Below are positions 3,439 through 56,928 of a DNA stretch of 64,000 nucleotides, in pieces. Origin of the DNA: Cytobacillus oceanisediminis (GTDB taxonomy: Bacteria; Bacillota; Bacilli; Bacillales; Cytobacillaceae); NCBI RefSeq assembly GCF_022811925.1, contig NZ_CP065511.1, forward strand, positions 1,605,501 to 1,669,500, given 5' to 3'. A program made the translations under genes and the position numbers. The notes beneath the pieces are model-generated. The model saw only the letters and a program-made list of their open reading frames with translations, searched no databases and was not told the origin of the DNA. Positions within the stretch are counted from its first letter, which is position 1, and the number at the start of each line of letters is the position of its first letter.

Positions 3439-6400
3439 ATGAAGAGGAAAAAAATAAGGAAGATCCTTACAGGAACATTGGCTGTAGGCATGTTACTATC
3501 TCAAGGCACTCCATATAACGTATTGGCGAAAAGCACCTATGAACTGAATCCAGTGGATCATGCGGAAGAAATTCTAAAGAGCCTGTCTTCAGAACAAAGA
3601 AAAGCGTTAGAGCAATTGGATGCCAAACCAAACTTTACGATTTCTCAGGATATTAATGTGAATAGTCCGGAATTAGTCAAAGTCATCGTGGAATTTGAAC
3701 AGGCACCGGCGAAAATTGAAGTGATGAAACAAGCGGCGAAAGGAACGAAACTATCTACTGCTGATGCGAATGAAAAAGTAAAAGAATCCCACAAGGCTTT
3801 TATAGAACATGTGCAATCATTGAAATCACAGAAAAACGTAACCAAATACAAAGCAGAAGATGTAAAGATCACAAGAGAGTATACAAACGCCATTAATGGT
3901 GTAGCGATGACGCTGCCTGGCGTGGCCGTGCAGGATTTGCTGCAATCTGGAGTAGTGAAACGTATTTTTAAAGATTACGAAGTAAAAGTGGAACCGCCGG
4001 TAAAAACAAAAGAAGTGATCGATCCAAAAATGGCAGACAGTATTCCGCAAATTGGTGTGGACAAGCTACATGCCGAGAACATTACCGGTAAGGGAATAAA
4101 AGTCGGTGTTCTTGATACAGGTGTTGACTACAATCATCCTGACTTAAAAGAAGCTTATAAAGGCGGATATGATTTTATCGATAATGATGCCGATCCAATG
4201 GAAACGACATACGAGGATTGGATCAATGCCGGCAAGCCAGAATATCCTGGTTTAGTGTATTACACAAACCACGGGACACATGTCGCGGGGACGATTGCAG
4301 CCCAAAAGAAAAACAATGTCGATTACGCTGTAAAAGGGGTAGCACCTGAAGTAGATTTATATGCTTATAGAGTATTAGGACCTTGGGGAGGGGGAGATAC
4401 AGCGGGAATCCTTGCTGGAATCGATCAAGCGATTGCAGATAGCATGGATGTCATCAATATGTCGCTCGGTGCCAGAACCAACGATCCGTTATATGCTACT
4501 TCTGTCGCAACGAATAACGCCATGCTTTCAGGAGTGGTGACGGTTGTTGCCGCAGGAAACTCCGGACCAGGCGAAAAAACCCTCGGTTCTCCAGGAACGG
4601 CTGCTCTCGGGATATCAGTAGGAGCAAGCGATGCTTCGATGTCCATTCCGACATTTAATGGAAGCGCTTCCGGAGAAAAATTTGAAAATATGCAACTGCT
4701 GGGTAAAGATTTTTCTGATCGATTAGCAGAATTGCAGGGGCAATCCTTACCAATTGTATTTGCAGGGCTTGGTAAAGCTGCTGACTTTGCTGGAAAAGAT
4801 GTCAATGGGAAACTTGCGCTGATTCAGCGTGGGGAAATTACGTTTGATGAAAAAATCAAGAATGCTAAAAACGCCGGGGCTAAAGCAGTGATTGTGTACA
4901 ACAATGTTGATGGGCAAATATCTGCCTACTTGGGCGAATCCGTCGGATTAATCCCTTCTTTCCGCCTGTCAAAAGCGGATGGTGAGCGATTAAAGGGACT
5001 GGGCGAAAGCTCCTTCACATTTGAAACGTTAAGTAACACAAAAACGGAAGGTGATCACTTAGCAGATTTCAGTTCGCGTGGGCCGGTAAATGGAAATTAT
5101 GATATTAAGCCGGATGTTGTCGCTCCAGGTGTGTCGGTTTTCTCAACAGCACCGGAGTTTATCAATGATCCGCAGGATGGCATTAATTATGGCAATGCCT
5201 ATGTGCGCTTATCGGGTACGTCTATGGCTGCTCCTCATACAGCAGGTACAGCAGCATTGATTTTGCAGGAGCATCCGGAATACACTCCTTTCGATGTAAA
5301 ATCGGCACTCATGAATACTTCAGACGATTTAAAAGGCGATTATTCTGTATACGAAGTGGGTGCAGGACGAATCGATGCCTATCAAGCGGTTCATACAGAT
5401 ACATCCATCAAAGTATGGGATAAGACAAAAAATATCGAAAATGGAAACGTCGTAGAAATTGACGAACAAACCGGCTCCATCGTATTCGGCAGATATTATA
5501 AAAAAGGTGATGCACCAATTGAAGCAAGCAAAAAGGTGACGGTTCAAAACAACAGCCAGGAAGAAAAATCTTTTAACCTAGAAGTGGAGTATCATGGCGA
5601 GCGTAAAGGCATTCAAGATGCAGTGAAGAACGGTGTAAAAGTGGCAGTGCCTTCATCGATTACAGTGGGAGGCGGCCAAGAACAGGAGCTCCAGCCAAAA
5701 ATAACGATTCCAACCAGCGCAGCGGCAGGAAGATATGAAGGGTATATTCATGTAACCAATGTGAACAATCCTGCTGAATCCTATCAAATTCCATTTGCTG
5801 TCATGGTGACGGAAAAGGGATTTGACTATGCGAAAACAAGCAGTCCATCCGTGACAAATACGACGCCTTTCTGGCAATATATGTACCCGTTTGTCCATGT
5901 CATCATGAAGCTGAATAGCCCGGTGAAAACCATTGATGTGCTTGTTAAGGACAGTAAAACAGGAAAAGCTGTAGGGTTCATAGGAACAGCAAACACGAGT
6001 AAATTATCAATTGATGTGGAAACTTTTTTAATCAATGCGTTCGCCGGTACGGTCTATCCATTTACAAATGATCCTTCCAAGCCGATTGGTGATCTTCCTG
6101 TGAAGCTTCCGGCAGGCGATTATATACTGGAACTGATCGGGCATGACGAAGAAGGAAAAACATATGTGGTCGATAATCCACTGATTGTGGACAATACAGC
6201 ACCGGAAGTAAATTTGGATAAAAAACCGGGTGTAATCGAGATTAATGACTCCATGTTTACGGAAGAGGATGGCCAAAAAGCGGTATGGCTGCATGGAACA
6301 GCAAAGGATGCGACAGTGGATCTATTAAAATCCAAAGGGTTAAACTATGATCAATCGTCTAACACAATGGGTTACTCTGCAAACTCCGGATTCATAGATG

Positions 6401-7590
6401 GATACTTCCCAATCCAAGCGAATGGAGATGTGAAATTCGGAATTGAGGAAAGTGATATTGCAACAAAACCTTTACATTTGACTTTGACTACGTATGATAT
6501 TGCAACGGCAATGGGTAAGCAAAACTATGTCTTTGTAAAAGAAGGTACGGAATATACGACTTCTAGTTATGATAAGAAAGATGTAAAAATCGGTGATACT
6601 GTAACAATGACACTTAGCCTCAATAATGTGAAGCAGCTTGTATCCGGGGAATACCAAGTCGAATTCATGAATGATCTGTTTAAGTTTGAGAATGTGAAAC
6701 TGAACAATGCGGTAAATGAGTATGCAAAGGAAAGAGGCTTGGAGGTATCGTTGCAAGAGCCTGTCGTGAAGGAAGGAACTCACAATAATACAGTGAAAGT
6801 CGGCGCATCTATGAAAGGGGATGCATTCAGCGGTATGGATGGAGATATGCCTTTTCTTGATGTTACGTTCAAAGTAGTAAGTGATGCATATTTCGATAAT
6901 GTTATCGGATTTAATGTACAACAGGCTTCTTATATGAAAGCGGGACAAACAGCAGCTACTGCCATTCCTTATTTCAGAACAGAAAACTTTAATATTATTC
7001 CAACGCATTCGAGAGTGCAGGGTTCTATCCAGCCAGAAGCATTTTTGATTGGGCCTGAGAACTCTCAGTATTTGAGAAAAGCGGATTATACAAAAATCGG
7101 TGCCCAAGTATATGCGATGTCCCCAAGCGGTAAAAAATATAAGGGAACAATTGATAATAGAGGTTTCTACACTATTCATGGTATCCCAGCTTCTACTGAA
7201 GCACACACAGTTGTTATTGATGTTCCGGGACATCTCAAAGTGATGAAGAAATTCATTCCTGGATATTCTGTAAACGGTGAGATGCGCGGGCAACATGTTA
7301 GATTAGGCGGTAAAGGTCTTGCAGGTGACGTGAATGACGACAGCATGATTGATATTCTCGATATTCAAAGTATCACAGAGGCCTATGGTACGAATGATCC
7401 ATCGATCGTGCCGCAAGATATCAATCAAGACGGCGTGGTAGACGAAACAGATATTCGTTTCGTCGAGAAAAACTTCTTAACGAAGGGACCGGATGCACCT
7501 GCTAAAAAGGAGCCAAAAGAATCACTTGGCAATGGCAAGAAGGATTTAGCATACTTCCTGCGTCTTGTCGGTCTTGAGCCGAAGCAATAA
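3439..7590 (+). CDS. Secreted multidomain subtilisin-like (S8) protease with cohesin-like and dockerin modules
   Basis: This is a large extracellular serine endopeptidase related to Bacillus Vpr and lactocepins. A signal peptide (KRKKIRK then a hydrophobic stretch to LAKS) leads into an I9-like propeptide (about 70-185). The catalytic domain has Asp226 (VLDTGVDYNHPDL), His278 (NHGTHVAGT), oxyanion Asn374 (AAGNSGPG) and Ser595 (GTSMAAPHTAG). A PA domain is inserted at about 400-515. Fn3-like domains follow. Residues about 1040-1165 resemble a cohesin fold (VKIGDTVTMTLSLNNV). About 1190-1275 resembles a carboxypeptidase-regulatory domain. Residues 1296-1350 form a type I dockerin with two calcium loops (DVNDDSMIDILD and DINQDGVVDETD). 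At 1383 residues it is much longer than Vpr (about 800). There is no cell-wall sorting motif at the C-terminus. Confidence 0.92.
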   Translation: MKRKKIRKILTGTLAVGMLLSQGTPYNVLAKSTYELNPVDHAEEILKSLSSEQRKALEQLDAKPNFTISQDINVNSPELVKVIVEFEQAPAKIEVMKQAAKGTKLSTADANEKVKESHKAFIEHVQSLKSQKNVTKYKAEDVKITREYTNAINGVAMTLPGVAVQDLLQSGVVKRIFKDYEVKVEPPVKTKEVIDPKMADSIPQIGVDKLHAENITGKGIKVGVLDTGVDYNHPDLKEAYKGGYDFIDNDADPMETTYEDWINAGKPEYPGLVYYTNHGTHVAGTIAAQKKNNVDYAVKGVAPEVDLYAYRVLGPWGGGDTAGILAGIDQAIADSMDVINMSLGARTNDPLYATSVATNNAMLSGVVTVVAAGNSGPGEKTLGSPGTAALGISVGASDASMSIPTFNGSASGEKFENMQLLGKDFSDRLAELQGQSLPIVFAGLGKAADFAGKDVNGKLALIQRGEITFDEKIKNAKNAGAKAVIVYNNVDGQISAYLGESVGLIPSFRLSKADGERLKGLGESSFTFETLSNTKTEGDHLADFSSRGPVNGNYDIKPDVVAPGVSVFSTAPEFINDPQDGINYGNAYVRLSGTSMAAPHTAGTAALILQEHPEYTPFDVKSALMNTSDDLKGDYSVYEVGAGRIDAYQAVHTDTSIKVWDKTKNIENGNVVEIDEQTGSIVFGRYYKKGDAPIEASKKVTVQNNSQEEKSFNLEVEYHGERKGIQDAVKNGVKVAVPSSITVGGGQEQELQPKITIPTSAAAGRYEGYIHVTNVNNPAESYQIPFAVMVTEKGFDYAKTSSPSVTNTTPFWQYMYPFVHVIMKLNSPVKTIDVLVKDSKTGKAVGFIGTANTSKLSIDVETFLINAFAGTVYPFTNDPSKPIGDLPVKLPAGDYILELIGHDEEGKTYVVDNPLIVDNTAPEVNLDKKPGVIEINDSMFTEEDGQKAVWLHGTAKDATVDLLKSKGLNYDQSSNTMGYSANSGFIDGYFPIQANGDVKFGIEESDIATKPLHLTLTTYDIATAMGKQNYVFVKEGTEYTTSSYDKKDVKIGDTVTMTLSLNNVKQLVSGEYQVEFMNDLFKFENVKLNNAVNEYAKERGLEVSLQEPVVKEGTHNNTVKVGASMKGDAFSGMDGDMPFLDVTFKVVSDAYFDNVIGFNVQQASYMKAGQTAATAIPYFRTENFNIIPTHSRVQGSIQPEAFLIGPENSQYLRKADYTKIGAQVYAMSPSGKKYKGTIDNRGFYTIHGIPASTEAHTVVIDVPGHLKVMKKFIPGYSVNGEMRGQHVRLGGKGLAGDVNDDSMIDILDIQSITEAYGTNDPSIVPQDINQDGVVDETDIRFVEKNFLTKGPDAPAKKEPKESLGNGKKDLAYFLRLVGLEPKQ

Positions 7591-7607
7591 CAAGGGATGA
7601 TGATGAA

Positions 7608-7646
7608 AAAGGGAGGAATGCAAAAGCATTTCTCCCTTTCTTTTTA
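7608..7646 (+). terminator. Rho-independent terminator after the protease gene
   Basis: A 14-bp stem, AAAGGGAGGAATGC (7608-7621) with GCATTTCTCCCTTT (7626-7639) and one G-U pair, closes a four-base loop. It is followed by CTTTTTAT. Confidence 0.85.
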
Positions 7647-53584: not shown

Positions 53585-54547
53585 ATGCATAAGACATTAG
53601 TGAAATTCGGGATCCTTCTTTTGTGCCTTCTTTTATTGGCCTCCTGCGGACAAGCGATGTCTACAGGAAAACTTGAAAAAGCTGGATTATTAGTGCCCGA
53701 TACCGTCAATGATCAGGTATGGGGGACCAAAGGCTATAAAGGCATGTTAAAGATTCAATCCCATTATAATGTTGAGGTTTATTATAAAGAGGGCATGAAT
53801 TCTGAGATGGTTGTTGAAAGAGCTGTTAAAGAGTTAGATCAAAAAGGTGTAAACCTGATTTTTGGACATGGCAATGAATACGCGGCATACTTTAATAACA
53901 TTTCTAAAAAATACCCTGACATTCATTTTGTCAGCTTTAATGGCGATGCCCAAAATGACAACACCACCAGCTTGAATTTTGAAGCCTATGCAATGGGATT
54001 CTTTGGCGGCATGGTTGCTGGTCATATGACGAAAACCAATAATATAGGAATACTCGCAGCTTTTGAATGGCAGCCGGAGGTAGAAGGTTTTTATCAAGGT
54101 GTAAGCCAAATTGATGAAAGAATAAATGTGCAAATTCAATATGTCGGCAACTGGGACAATGATAATAAAGCCATAGCTCTCTTGGAAAAAATGATTGCCA
54201 ATAAGACAGATGTTGTCTATCCAGCTGGAGATGGGTATAATGTTCCTGTCATCGAGAAACTAAAAGAAGAAGGGCTCTACGCCATCGGTTATATTTCCGA
54301 CCAGTCTGATCTGGGTGAATCAGTTGTGCTGACCAGTACTGTTCAGCATGTCGATGTTTTGTATGAACTAGTTGCAGAAAAATTCAACGAAGGCGAACTG
54401 GAGTCAGGAAATTTAACTTTCGATTTCGAGGATGAAGTTATTTCACTGGGAAAATTCAGCCCTGACGTCGACGAAGAATTCAAAAAAGAACTAAACGCCG
54501 CCATTGAGAATTACAAAAAAACAGGCAAACTGCCCACCAAGAATTGA
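53585..54547 (+). CDS. med: Med, BMP-family lipoprotein activating comK
   Basis: This is a 320-residue lipoprotein of the basic membrane protein (BMP/PnrA-like) substrate-binding family. The signal peptide ends in LLASC, so Cys is lipidated. BMP motifs include VNDQVWGTKGYKGM, FNGDAQNDNTTSLNFEAYAMGFFGGMVAG and VYPAGDGYNVPVIEK. In B. subtilis Med positively affects competence through comK, and comZ follows in the same transcript; that order is kept. Whether it binds a nucleoside is untested here. Confidence 0.9.
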   Translation: MHKTLVKFGILLLCLLLLASCGQAMSTGKLEKAGLLVPDTVNDQVWGTKGYKGMLKIQSHYNVEVYYKEGMNSEMVVERAVKELDQKGVNLIFGHGNEYAAYFNNISKKYPDIHFVSFNGDAQNDNTTSLNFEAYAMGFFGGMVAGHMTKTNNIGILAAFEWQPEVEGFYQGVSQIDERINVQIQYVGNWDNDNKAIALLEKMIANKTDVVYPAGDGYNVPVIEKLKEEGLYAIGYISDQSDLGESVVLTSTVQHVDVLYELVAEKFNEGELESGNLTFDFEDEVISLGKFSPDVDEEFKKELNAAIENYKKTGKLPTKN

Positions 54548-54569
54548 TATACATAGGAGGTACTACAAG

Positions 54570-54764
54570 ATGCAGCTAAACGAAAAAAACATGGAATTCA
54601 TGCAAATCGCCATGAAATATCTGCCAGAAGCCAAACAGCAGCTCGACGAAGCAGGCATTGAACTATCCATGGAAATGATCCAGCCATTCATGAACCTATT
54701 CACCAAAGTCATGAACGAAGCCTACGAAATGGGCAAAGCGGATGCTTTGAATGAGAGTGAGTAA
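54570..54764 (+). CDS. comZ: ComZ, competence-related small protein
   Basis: This is a 64-residue ComZ-type protein, which in B. subtilis acts negatively on late competence gene comG expression. It reads EKNMEFMQIAMKYLPEAKQQ, then a long amphipathic helix with Met/Phe heptads. ATG 54570 follows AGGAGG; an in-frame ATG further upstream lies inside med. It is 22 bp after med and in its transcript. Confidence 0.9.
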   Translation: MQLNEKNMEFMQIAMKYLPEAKQQLDEAGIELSMEMIQPFMNLFTKVMNEAYEMGKADALNESE

Positions 54765-54768
54765 TGGG

Positions 54769-54795
54769 GAACCAGCCTTTGGGCTGGTTTTTTGT
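54769..54795 (+). terminator. Terminator of med-comZ
   Basis: AACCAGCC (54770-54777) and GGCTGGTT (54782-54789) with TTTTTTG. Confidence 0.9.
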
Positions 54796-54837
54796 TTGGG
54801 GTATTACCTCTGCGGGATTTGAATGATTATAAAAATG

Positions 54838-55354
54838 GCGCAAAAAGTTAGCTGAAAGCGCAAATGACTTATATAACGGCGCAATAAAGAAGAAGAACAG
54901 CGCAAGTAAAGTAATCAAGACGCAATCAGGTCTTGAGAGCGCAATTAAGCCAGAGGAAAACGCATATAAAATATATGATGGCGCAATGGAGAAAATGAAC
55001 AACGCAATTAAAATAAATCACGACGCAATTTAGGTCCCGAGAGCGCAAAAAAGCAAGAGGAAGACGCAAATGACTTATATATCGGCGCAATAAAGAAAAG
55101 GAACAGCGCAATTAAAGTAAATCAGGACGCAATCAGGTCCCGAGGGCGCAAATAAGCAAGTGGAAGACGCAAATAACTTAGATGATGGCGCAAAGGAGAA
55201 AAAGAACAGCGCAATTAAAGTAATTCACGACGCAATCAGGTCTCGAGAGCGTAAAAACCAGAGGAAAACGCAAATAACCTAGATAATGGCGCAGAAAAAA
55301 AGAACTTGTGCTAATCAAGAAAATAACGAAGCAATCAGATTTCGAGAGACAAAA
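54838..55354. repeat. Hierarchical tandem repeat array, 20.6-bp monomer in 103-bp higher-order units
   Basis: (G/A)CGCA(A) cores start at 54839, 54859, 54880, 54901, 54921, 54940, 54961, 54982, 55003, 55024, 55044, 55065, 55086, 55107, 55128, 55147, 55168, 55189, 55210, 55231 and on to about 55350: 26 monomers spaced 19-21 bp. Five monomer types recur in fixed order, for example CGCAATCAGGTC followed by CGAGAG, then CGCAAATAAGCAAGAGGAA. The same type returns at 54859, 54961, 55065, 55168 and 55269, a ~103-bp unit. The last monomers are degenerate. The non-triplet period and stops in the plus frames argue against coding. It fills almost the entire 670-bp gap between comZ and the NERD gene. Confidence 0.88.
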
Positions 55355-55437
55355 ATATACATAACATACAAAAATCCAAAAGGGAATTTACTGATCGATT
55401 GCGAATTTTAAATACGTAAACTAAAGGAGGTAATGTA

Positions 55438-56382
55438 ATGATAATGAAGCCAAGAACTATTCCAAGAAGAATTCTGCAAAATGAAGCATTATTGCGAAGA
55501 TTGCCCGAATTTCATCGAAAGAGGCATGAAATTGAAAGAGATAACCGAAACCGAATTAGTGGATATAAAGGAGAAAGGCAGCTTGATTACTTTTTAGGTT
55601 TCCTTCCAAATGAATTTAAAGTATATAATGATCTCCGTTTTAAAAACCACACTGCCTTTCAAATCGATACCCTTCTAATAACTCCTTTTTTCACAGCTAT
55701 TATTGAAGTGAAGAATTATACCGGTACTTTATACTTTGAACCTCTTTCTGATCAAGTGATTCAAATACATTATTCCTAATCCTATTTCACAGGTAAAACG
55801 GCAAGCAGCACAGTTCATAGAATGGATGCATAACGAAAAACTGCCAGCCGTACCTATTGAACATTTTGTAGTAATGGCTAATCAATTAACCTATATAAAA
55901 ACCGAGAAGGAAAATAGAGATATTTTAAAGACAGTGATCCATGCTGAGAAAATAATAGACAGGCTGCTGGAAGCCAAAAATCAATATCAAAAACAATTAC
56001 TTTATCCCCATCAGATAAAAGAAATTAATAAAAGACTTCTTGTAAAACATACCCCATCCAACAAGAAAATTCTCGAAATATATGGAATAGCGGAGAAAGA
56101 ACTAATACGAGGTGTTCAATGTAACTCTTGCAACTCTTTTAACATTAAAAGAAAAAATCGGAAGTGGCATGCTCTATATGTCAAAACATTTCCAACACTG
56201 CTCATCGACAAGCCATCTATGACTATTTCCTTCTTATTAACGATCAAATATCGAATACGGGTTGCCGCGAGTTCCTTAATATTAATTCCAGGCACATGAC
56301 CTATAAATTACTATCTTCAATGAAGCTTAAAAATAAAGGTGTCACTAAATCCAGGGTTTATACAGAAAATGATGCAGAGTAG
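55438..56382 (+). pseudogene. NERD-domain (nuclease-related) protein, broken by two frameshifts
   Basis: Three consecutive frames together give one NERD protein. The first (55438-55779) has the N-terminal NERD core: GYKGERQLDYFL, then FQIDTLLI and AIIEVKNYTG (the E-x-K nuclease-like motif). After a frameshift near 55760-55780 the second frame continues with PNPISQVKRQAAQFIEWMHNEK. It reaches a zinc-ribbon half CNSCNSF and then slips near 56170 (CAT GCT, one T short of CAT TGC). The third frame supplies CSICQN and the C-terminus to 56382. The gene is therefore inactive unless these are sequencing errors. AAAGGAGG lies before the start, and it borders a repeat array. Confidence 0.85.
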
Positions 56383-56391
56383 CCCCAGCCC

Positions 56392-56778
56392 CTACTTCTT
56401 CAAAAACATCTCCAGCAAAGGCCCTGCATTTTTCAGCAATGGTTTTAACTGATGAGCTGAAGTCATAAGAGTGTCAATGTTGCCCATTAGTTCCTCCAAG
56501 TTGATATTGTTCAGGATATTGTTTCCATTTTCGTTAGGAGGATTGTCTCTTTCATTAGTTTCTCTGCTTCTTCCGCCAAGAAGCCATTCGTCAGCTTCAT
56601 GTGCATTTCTGCTCCTGCCCCCGAAAAGCCAGTCATCTATCCCTTGAGCTTCTTCAGCTCTTCTATCCGATTCAGTTTCACCTTCAGCTGGCTCATGTCT
56701 TCTTACTCTTTCACCAAACAGAAAATGGGTTAAAGGGTCTTCTGTATTTTCTTTGACTTTATCATCTTTATCAAGCAT
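56392..56778 (-). CDS. Hypothetical acidic protein with repeated L(F/L)G(G/E)R motifs
   Basis: I do not recognise a characterised family. The 128-residue protein has three copies of an aromatic-Leu-Phe/Leu-Gly-Gly/Glu-Arg motif: THFLFGERVR, DDWLFGGRSR and DEWLLGGRSR. A hydrophilic Asn-rich linker (PPNENGNNILNNIN) and a C-terminal amphipathic helix LKPLLKNAGPLLEMFLKK follow. The layout is reminiscent of spore-coat or sporulation-associated small proteins in Bacillus. In B. subtilis the gap between comZ and fabH holds yjzB, and this could be its counterpart. GAAAGGAGG precedes the ATG. Read opposite to its neighbours. Confidence 0.65.
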   Translation of the reverse strand: MLDKDDKVKENTEDPLTHFLFGERVRRHEPAEGETESDRRAEEAQGIDDWLFGGRSRNAHEADEWLLGGRSRETNERDNPPNENGNNILNNINLEELMGNIDTLMTSAHQLKPLLKNAGPLLEMFLKK

Positions 56779-56880
56779 AAGCTATTTTCCTCCTTTCAGA
56801 TCCCTATATAACAGCATATGAAGAAAAGTTAACTGGGTATAGACATTTGTGCAGTAATAAGTAAGGGAAGGTAAAAAGTG

Positions 56881-56928
56881 TTGCGTTATTATATATACTT
56901 TTGATAAAATTAGTACCAAGTCATAATA
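56881..56928 (+). promoter_or_regulatory. fabH promoter with FapR-like site
   Basis: TTGCGT (56881-56886) and TAAAAT (56905-56910) are 18 bp apart. TTAGTACC (56910-56917) matches one half of the FapR operator, and the mirrored half (TCATAATAA) is weaker. FapR would repress until malonyl-CoA rises. Confidence 0.55.

Follow-up and report, generated by a model that had tools for sequence, protein, structure and literature searches.

An array of 20.6-bp repeats beside comZ in Cytobacillus oceanisediminis is one of a set of chromosomal arrays oriented with replication

Subirana and Messeguer (2021, PMC8161180) described tandem repeats of Bacillus genomes that keep a fixed length, in most cases 20-21 or 51-53 nt, but vary in sequence, with several families in each species and a short signal that marks the species, such as TCGCGG for B. 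weihaiensis. In the main text of that paper, the 20-21-nt size is equated with two helical turns, nucleoid or small-RNA roles are suggested, and the repeats are termed enigmatic, being without known function. Here we report the analysis of an array from Cytobacillus oceanisediminis that fits this published 20-21-nt class as its main text describes it. The array keeps the constant size over at least four repeats (24 monomers of mean 20.6 bp by our segmentation, in place of the describers' program), the sequence varies between arrays of one genome (units are unrelated except for the present array and that of the licH-chbG site), and a short signal, here the GCGCNNAA/RCGCAA core, is kept in the species. 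As in PMC8161180, the arrays are non-coding and occupy many sites per genome. The initial annotation of this DNA, made from the sequence alone, knew of no named repeat family of this form, which as a statement about the class was wrong, since the 20-21-nt Bacillus repeats had been published. Five-monomer units, replication polarity, core and spacer rates, empty sites and site-to-site copying do not appear in the main text of PMC8161180, nor do leading-strand, orientation or helical terms appear in passages of the 2019 Subirana-Messeguer paper (PMC6749651). Further full-text searches gave no title that seemed to concern such repeats. Judged against these two texts, the grouping of repeats in fives and its orientation along the direction of replication may be new. 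The 52-nt repeats are a different matter, as a lag of 51-53 bp is not among the four best lags in any of the 47 arrays studied here.

Several other repeat systems resemble the arrays in part. BOX of Streptococcus pneumoniae is likewise a short interspersed element with a repeatable internal module, but BOX copies share sequence, whereas array units of different sites do not. The REP and BIME elements of enterobacteria are intergenic and lie mostly after genes, a niche that the arrays share, being mostly 3' of genes; REPs are palindromic, whereas no conserved hairpin was found in 19 folded arrays (z -3.4 to +1.7 over both strands). Plasmid iterons are direct repeats of about 20-22 bp placed two turns apart and bound by protein on one face. 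The arrays have the same approximately 20-bp direct repeats at two-turn spacing, but differ in occupying many chromosomal sites, in having no Rep gene among the immediate neighbours of nine arrays and, for the array analysed first, in giving no blastn match in plasmid or phage records. CRISPR arrays consist of near-identical repeats and unique spacers with cas genes alongside; here a short core is all that is shared, the spacers recur within the unit, and no cas domain occurs among the immediate neighbours.

The window, by which we mean the whole 64-kb stretch analysed, spans positions 1,605,501-1,669,500 of contig 1 (5.34 Mb) in a source genome of 5.58 Mb in two contigs. Its array lies on the plus strand at 54838..55354 and comprises about 24 monomers with the core (G/A)CGCAA, forming about five copies of a 103-bp five-monomer unit, as judged from Tandem Repeats Finder (TRF), core chain, segmentation and lag-five identity. 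Across the window, TRF reported a 103-bp period at 54854-55293 (4.3 copies, 81% matches, score 556) and a 207-bp period (2.1 copies, 84% matches, score 627), against 67 for the next best of 26 rows. CGCAA pairs 18-23 bp apart number 17, all inside 54839-55235, where 0.62 were expected and at most 4 occurred in 100 shuffles of the window. The array noticed in the initial annotation is therefore real, although its estimate of about 26 monomers is replaced by the 24 of our segmentation; these measure 19-21 bp each, in line with the proposed two-turn spacing. Twenty exact CGCAA cores are chained from 54839 to 55273 in steps of 19-21, or of 38 and 42, and the final two or three monomers are degenerate. 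Spacer identity is 0.78 at a monomer lag of five versus 0.56-0.59 at the remaining lags from one to eight, which bears out the five monomer types in fixed order. A single unit occupies 54859..54960 (plus strand; 102 bp counted from CGCAA starts), and a further one, 55065..55167 (plus strand), is built of monomers of 21+21+21+19+21 = 103 bp, with cores at 55065, 55086, 55107, 55128, 55147 and 55168. A coding repeat was rejected for the window, in agreement with the initial annotation, because 103 is not a multiple of three (1 mod 3) and no open reading frame touching the array exceeds 97 aa (the longest is on the minus strand); the window array has no conserved frame, and non-coding status at the other sites was judged by simple ORF calls that dropped ORFs lying mostly on an array. 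No Rfam family matched 54400-56900 at E up to 1. Phage or plasmid origin was rejected on the blastn result given above; a scan of viral contigs for the core pattern, in which nearly all of the records listed had a single match, bears on the question in neither direction.

Upstream of the array lie a med-like BMP-family gene at 53585..54547 (plus strand; Pfam Bmp PF02608, E 8.4e-66), whose product is 97% identical to its counterpart in C. oceanisediminis 2691, and comZ at 54570..54764 (plus strand; Pfam ComZ PF10815, E 2.6e-33). The location directly after a med-comZ terminator is borne out by eye, where a hairpin and T run at 54770..54794 (plus strand) form a probable comZ terminator, but not by the pattern scan, which did not list it. 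Downstream, a broken NERD-domain gene occupies 55438..56382 (plus strand) in pieces at 55438-55779, 55826-56299 and 56164-56382, located in differing frames by tblastn with a relative's ORF. The first piece matches Pfam NERD PF08378 (E 5.3e-13). Fragments of 113 aa and 157 aa are read in separate frames where a relative has a 330-aa NERD ORF, in agreement with the decayed gene described before.

The window array belongs to a larger set of arrays, chromosomal and for the most part intergenic, that some members of the genus carry. In the source genome, nine arrays were found by pattern searches, all on contig 1, at about 235, 315, 690, 1152, 1580, 1660 (the window array), 1764, 2962 and 3887 kb; the patterns cover the core types searched, and arrays with other cores would be missed. 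A three-CGCAA pattern gave 35 matches in this genome and its reversed control none. Among 36 genus genomes, 12 matched the corresponding three-core GCGC pattern, as did 13 of 157 other genomes of the family, several of the latter by one chance-like match each, and its backwards control matched real CGCG-type arrays in several genera. That many genomes lack the GCGC pattern points to no essential conserved function. For comparison, 40 regions were taken from eight relatives (39 of 14 kb and one of 8.7 kb); L164 and L180, without a chain of four cores, were left out of the array count, and the total reached 47 arrays at 19 orthologous sites, including the window, L033, L034 and six more from the source genome that were added late, with bounds and core strands set by eye. 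The genes beside the nine source-genome arrays (comZ, NERD, licH, chbG, lytT, cstA and other unrelated genes) have no common theme. The array near 1.58 Mb (L186) lies directly 3' of an addA-like gene with UvrD and PD-(D/E)XK domains and precedes a weak, below-cutoff HNH match.

The commonest unit in this set is a ten-turn block of about 103 bp, made of five monomers with the core GCGCNNAA (RCGCAA in the source genome) every 20.6 bp. In 30 of the 47 arrays, the top self-similarity lag is 102-104 bp or two or three times this value. Of the 17 that depart from it, six lack the length needed to reveal such a lag, and the rest have top lags of 123, 127, 81-82, 161-164, 246, 59, 40 or 21 bp. Of the 41 arrays with eight or more monomers, 31 have their best monomer lag at five, and 16 of 18 sites hold at least one such array. 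Among the exceptions are lytT/cstA, with a unit of six monomers and 123 bp, and the flotillin-site array L187, with four. Separately, L189 (genome G008, about 7300-7520) has a two-monomer unit of 40 bp with the core GCGCACAGAAA, so that five is not universal even within the genus. The approximately 103-bp period, whose stability had been set beforehand as a refutation test, is kept across species. Distinct monomers number 401 in the 47 arrays, 260 of them of 21 bp, 82 of 19 bp and 32 of 20 bp; with 21 bp prevailing and 19 commoner than 20, many units run 21+21+21+21+19, although part of the excess of odd lengths could reflect sliding of the GCGC register within GCGCGC runs. The variance of five-monomer sums was 1.85 versus 2.96 when permuted, with p <0.05 at 5 of 18 sites; phase keeping by alternating monomer lengths is not claimed.

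This geometry is shared without evident sequence kinship, as the spacers of different sites are unrelated. No pair of the 184 compared exceeds 0.71 in unit identity (mean about 0.57), except the window and licH-chbG units (0.86); units of summed length 101-105 were taken for this comparison, so that their lengths lend no independent support to the period, as the lag and monomer-size analyses do. The initial annotation had likened the array to alpha-satellite, and the layering into monomers and higher-order units holds, but the analogy otherwise fails, because sites with unrelated spacers share a nearly equal five-monomer unit length. In the 184 non-orthologous pairs, the in-register rotation scored 0.584 versus 0.562-0.570 for the others and ranked first in 63. 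This is not taken as evidence that all units share an ancestor, since an equal-length comparison favours the in-register rotation, and a weak old kinship is possible.

The GCGCNNAA core recurs among the 47 Cytobacillus arrays at 19 sites and differs about half as often as the spacers. Between copies five monomers apart, core positions differ in 38 of 712 cases (5.3%) and spacer positions in 358 of 3026 (11.8%), an odds ratio of 0.42, in a comparison of 18 arrays and 178 non-independent pairs restricted to 21-mers, with pairs of more than eight differences dropped. The AA at +6 and +7 differs in 3.9% and 3.4%, as low as the core. The rates have the opposite sign in three of the 18 arrays (L145, L161 and L173) and are equal in L166.

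The core itself varies in the family, where CGCGGATA and CGCGAGTAAA types exist. In the gap between DUF554 and DUF1256, five genus genomes carry 20-21-bp arrays with a TTATCTARCA core (L271 in G025, L273 in G024, L274 in G007, L275 in G008 and L278 in G026), and the others found there are GCGC arrays. Ten further genomes, mostly of other genera (G042, G043, G112, G114, G122, G125, G128, G150, G162 and G030), have 20-21-bp arrays with CGCG(G/A)ATA, CGCGAGTAAA or similar cores; the CGCG-type cores of other genera resemble the B. weihaiensis signal TCGCGG. Within a single array, L191 of genome G055 (about 7260-7640), the monomers shift from TTGGATAATAAAC to GGCGCATAACC while the step of about 20 bp is kept, which looks as if the core were being exchanged.

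The arrays are oriented with the replication fork, the core strand being the leading strand in nearly all of them. Skew and DnaA boxes place the source-genome origin near 246.5 kb and the terminus at 2.42-2.6 Mb, and by replichore the core is on the leading strand in all nine arrays of that genome; for the 690-kb array the automatic pattern gave '-', and the strand was read as '+' from its GCGCACANAAA monomers after the sequence had been seen. By local GC skew, the core strand is leading in 40 of 41 arrays, a count that excludes the six later source-genome arrays, judged by replichore only, and includes some weak skews (e.g. L166, -0.012; L170, +0.023). The sole exception by skew, lytT/cstA, is leading by replichore, though both its neighbours are lagging genes. 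Genome G019 has at least nine arrays, five in plus orientation before the terminus and four in minus after it, all leading. Outside Cytobacillus the polarity of CGCG-type arrays is weaker: 12 of 13 listed places agree with skew-defined arms in G043, where the array at 85 kb is reversed, and the one array checked in each of G042 and G162 appears reversed.

Array orientation is confounded with transcription, and local GC skew itself partly mirrors gene direction. Of the 19 sites, 16 have a 5' neighbour that is sense to the array and one is mixed in this respect; simple ORF calls give the two neighbours as both sense at nine sites, convergent at seven, divergent at one, both antisense at one and mixed between relatives at one. 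The convergent sites are informative because either orientation would give a sense 5' gene. All seven are leading, four by replichore and three (L175, L176 and L179) by local skew only; L179 is counted as convergent and becomes antisense to both neighbours under an 80-aa threshold.

The licH-chbG site differs between genomes in the presence and size of its array. A chbG match was found in 13 of 36 genus genomes, and 11 loci were compared, two at 41% identity being left out. Six of these (G032, G007, G024, G025, G026 and G008) have a gap of 12-65 bp with no array, and the others carry 1 (G027), 2 (G017), 4 (G000, the source genome), 6 (G020) or 9 (G019) units of one type, 102-104 bp apart, or 92 in G017. 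The single unit may have founded an array or be what is left of one. The window array is 78-83% identical to the licH-chbG arrays and has no match at E 1e-3 in the comZ-site arrays of relatives; being of the licH-chbG type and unlike the relatives' comZ arrays, it suggests that an array was copied or converted between sites in the source lineage. In a survey of 40 comZ loci, three of them without a complete gap, an array was found in 7 of 7 loci with a NERD gene or remnant and in 0 of 31 complete gaps without NERD, a pairing that partly reflects shared descent. The C. firmus records have a comZ site with no array.

Predicted curvature is uneven, ranging from z -13.6 to +1.5 across 23 arrays, and for the window array two wedge models give z -4.5 and -1.1. 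RNA folding gives z -1.1 and -1.2 for the window array, and no fold proved to be conserved among 19 arrays of which the initial 210 nt were folded (z -2.4 to +1.7 for the core strand and -3.4 to +0.9 for the other). With curvature variable and no RNA structure maintained, what the arrays keep is core, spacing, unit and polarity, and these fit a protein that would read the core and pack every two turns. Of the protein-binding or curvature element suggested in the initial annotation, binding is retained as the best reading, because the core is kept while the spacers drift, and curvature as a common property is not. From these sequence comparisons we tentatively propose, at somewhat less than an even chance, that the arrays are cooperative binding sites two helical turns apart for a putative DNA-binding protein, with replication-related polarity. 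The block of about 103 bp would be the docking site of this sequence-specific protein, which would pack side by side on one helix face and might act as a polar complex of about five sites that is aligned with replication. Its role would be nucleoid or replication-linked housekeeping rather than control of single genes, and array copies would grow by whole units and from time to time give rise to a copy elsewhere between genes.

Chief among the alternatives is a function-free satellite whose arrays expand by whole-unit slippage or recombination and in which replication through the purine-rich strand lets only one orientation persist. The unit numbers of 1 to 9 at licH-chbG, the empty sites there and at C. 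firmus comZ, the different arrays of five genus genomes at DUF554-DUF1256 and the near-complete strand polarity would all be expected of such DNA; a core kept while spacers diverge and a five-monomer unit recurring at sites with unrelated spacers would not, and we regard this explanation as unlikely, if still a serious one.

Elements that act on the single-stranded lagging-strand template insert with strand bias, and a non-autonomous mobile element of this kind, a five-monomer block of about 100 bp that enters intergenic DNA and then multiplies in place, appears distinctly unlikely. The contrast of empty and one-unit filled licH-chbG sites fits an insertion, but the single unit may be a remnant and not a founder; the licH-chbG type of the window array, the small number of divergent-promoter sites and the co-occurrence of the comZ array with NERD agree with mobility, whereas units at different sites are not copies of one another, and terminal repeats, a target duplication or a mobilising gene were not noticed on an unsystematic look. 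A transcribed RNA element, in a 3' UTR or as a small RNA as Subirana and Messeguer suggested, would account for the co-directional 5' neighbour at 16 of 19 sites, but it is improbable in view of the fold and Rfam results and of lytT/cstA, where the array is antisense to both neighbours. Intrinsically curved DNA is highly improbable and was rejected as a common property. The full wedge model predicts curvature beyond that of shuffles (z -2.0 or lower) in 12 of 23 arrays, window included, but in the other 11 it is slight or absent, and for the window array the second model does not agree with the first.

A wider proposal, itself doubtful, is that Cytobacillus chromosomes carry polar, replication-oriented marks, namely blocks of ten turns, each with five two-turn sites, that keep their geometry while nearly all of the sequence outside a short core is free, and whose core switches between species. 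Core switching with constant geometry would then be what is expected of an oligomeric DNA-binding protein family that changes specificity faster than shape. For the enigmatic 20-21-nt repeats, the present results yield statements that can be tested: units mostly consist of five monomers, constraint lies on the core, and orientation follows the fork.

Two minor observations concern individual records of the comZ locus. In C. oceanisediminis 15_TX (L046, about 4720-5325), just 3' of the comZ terminator, the place where relatives carry the array is taken by what, by eye, resembles a group II intron containing the beginning of a reverse transcriptase. Three loci from records titled Sporosarcina globispora, Paenibacillus sp. 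FSL R5-0490 and Pseudomonas sp. ISL-84 (L038, L043 and L044) encode Med-like proteins 87-92% identical to that of the window, which suggests that these genomes are mislabelled or renamed.
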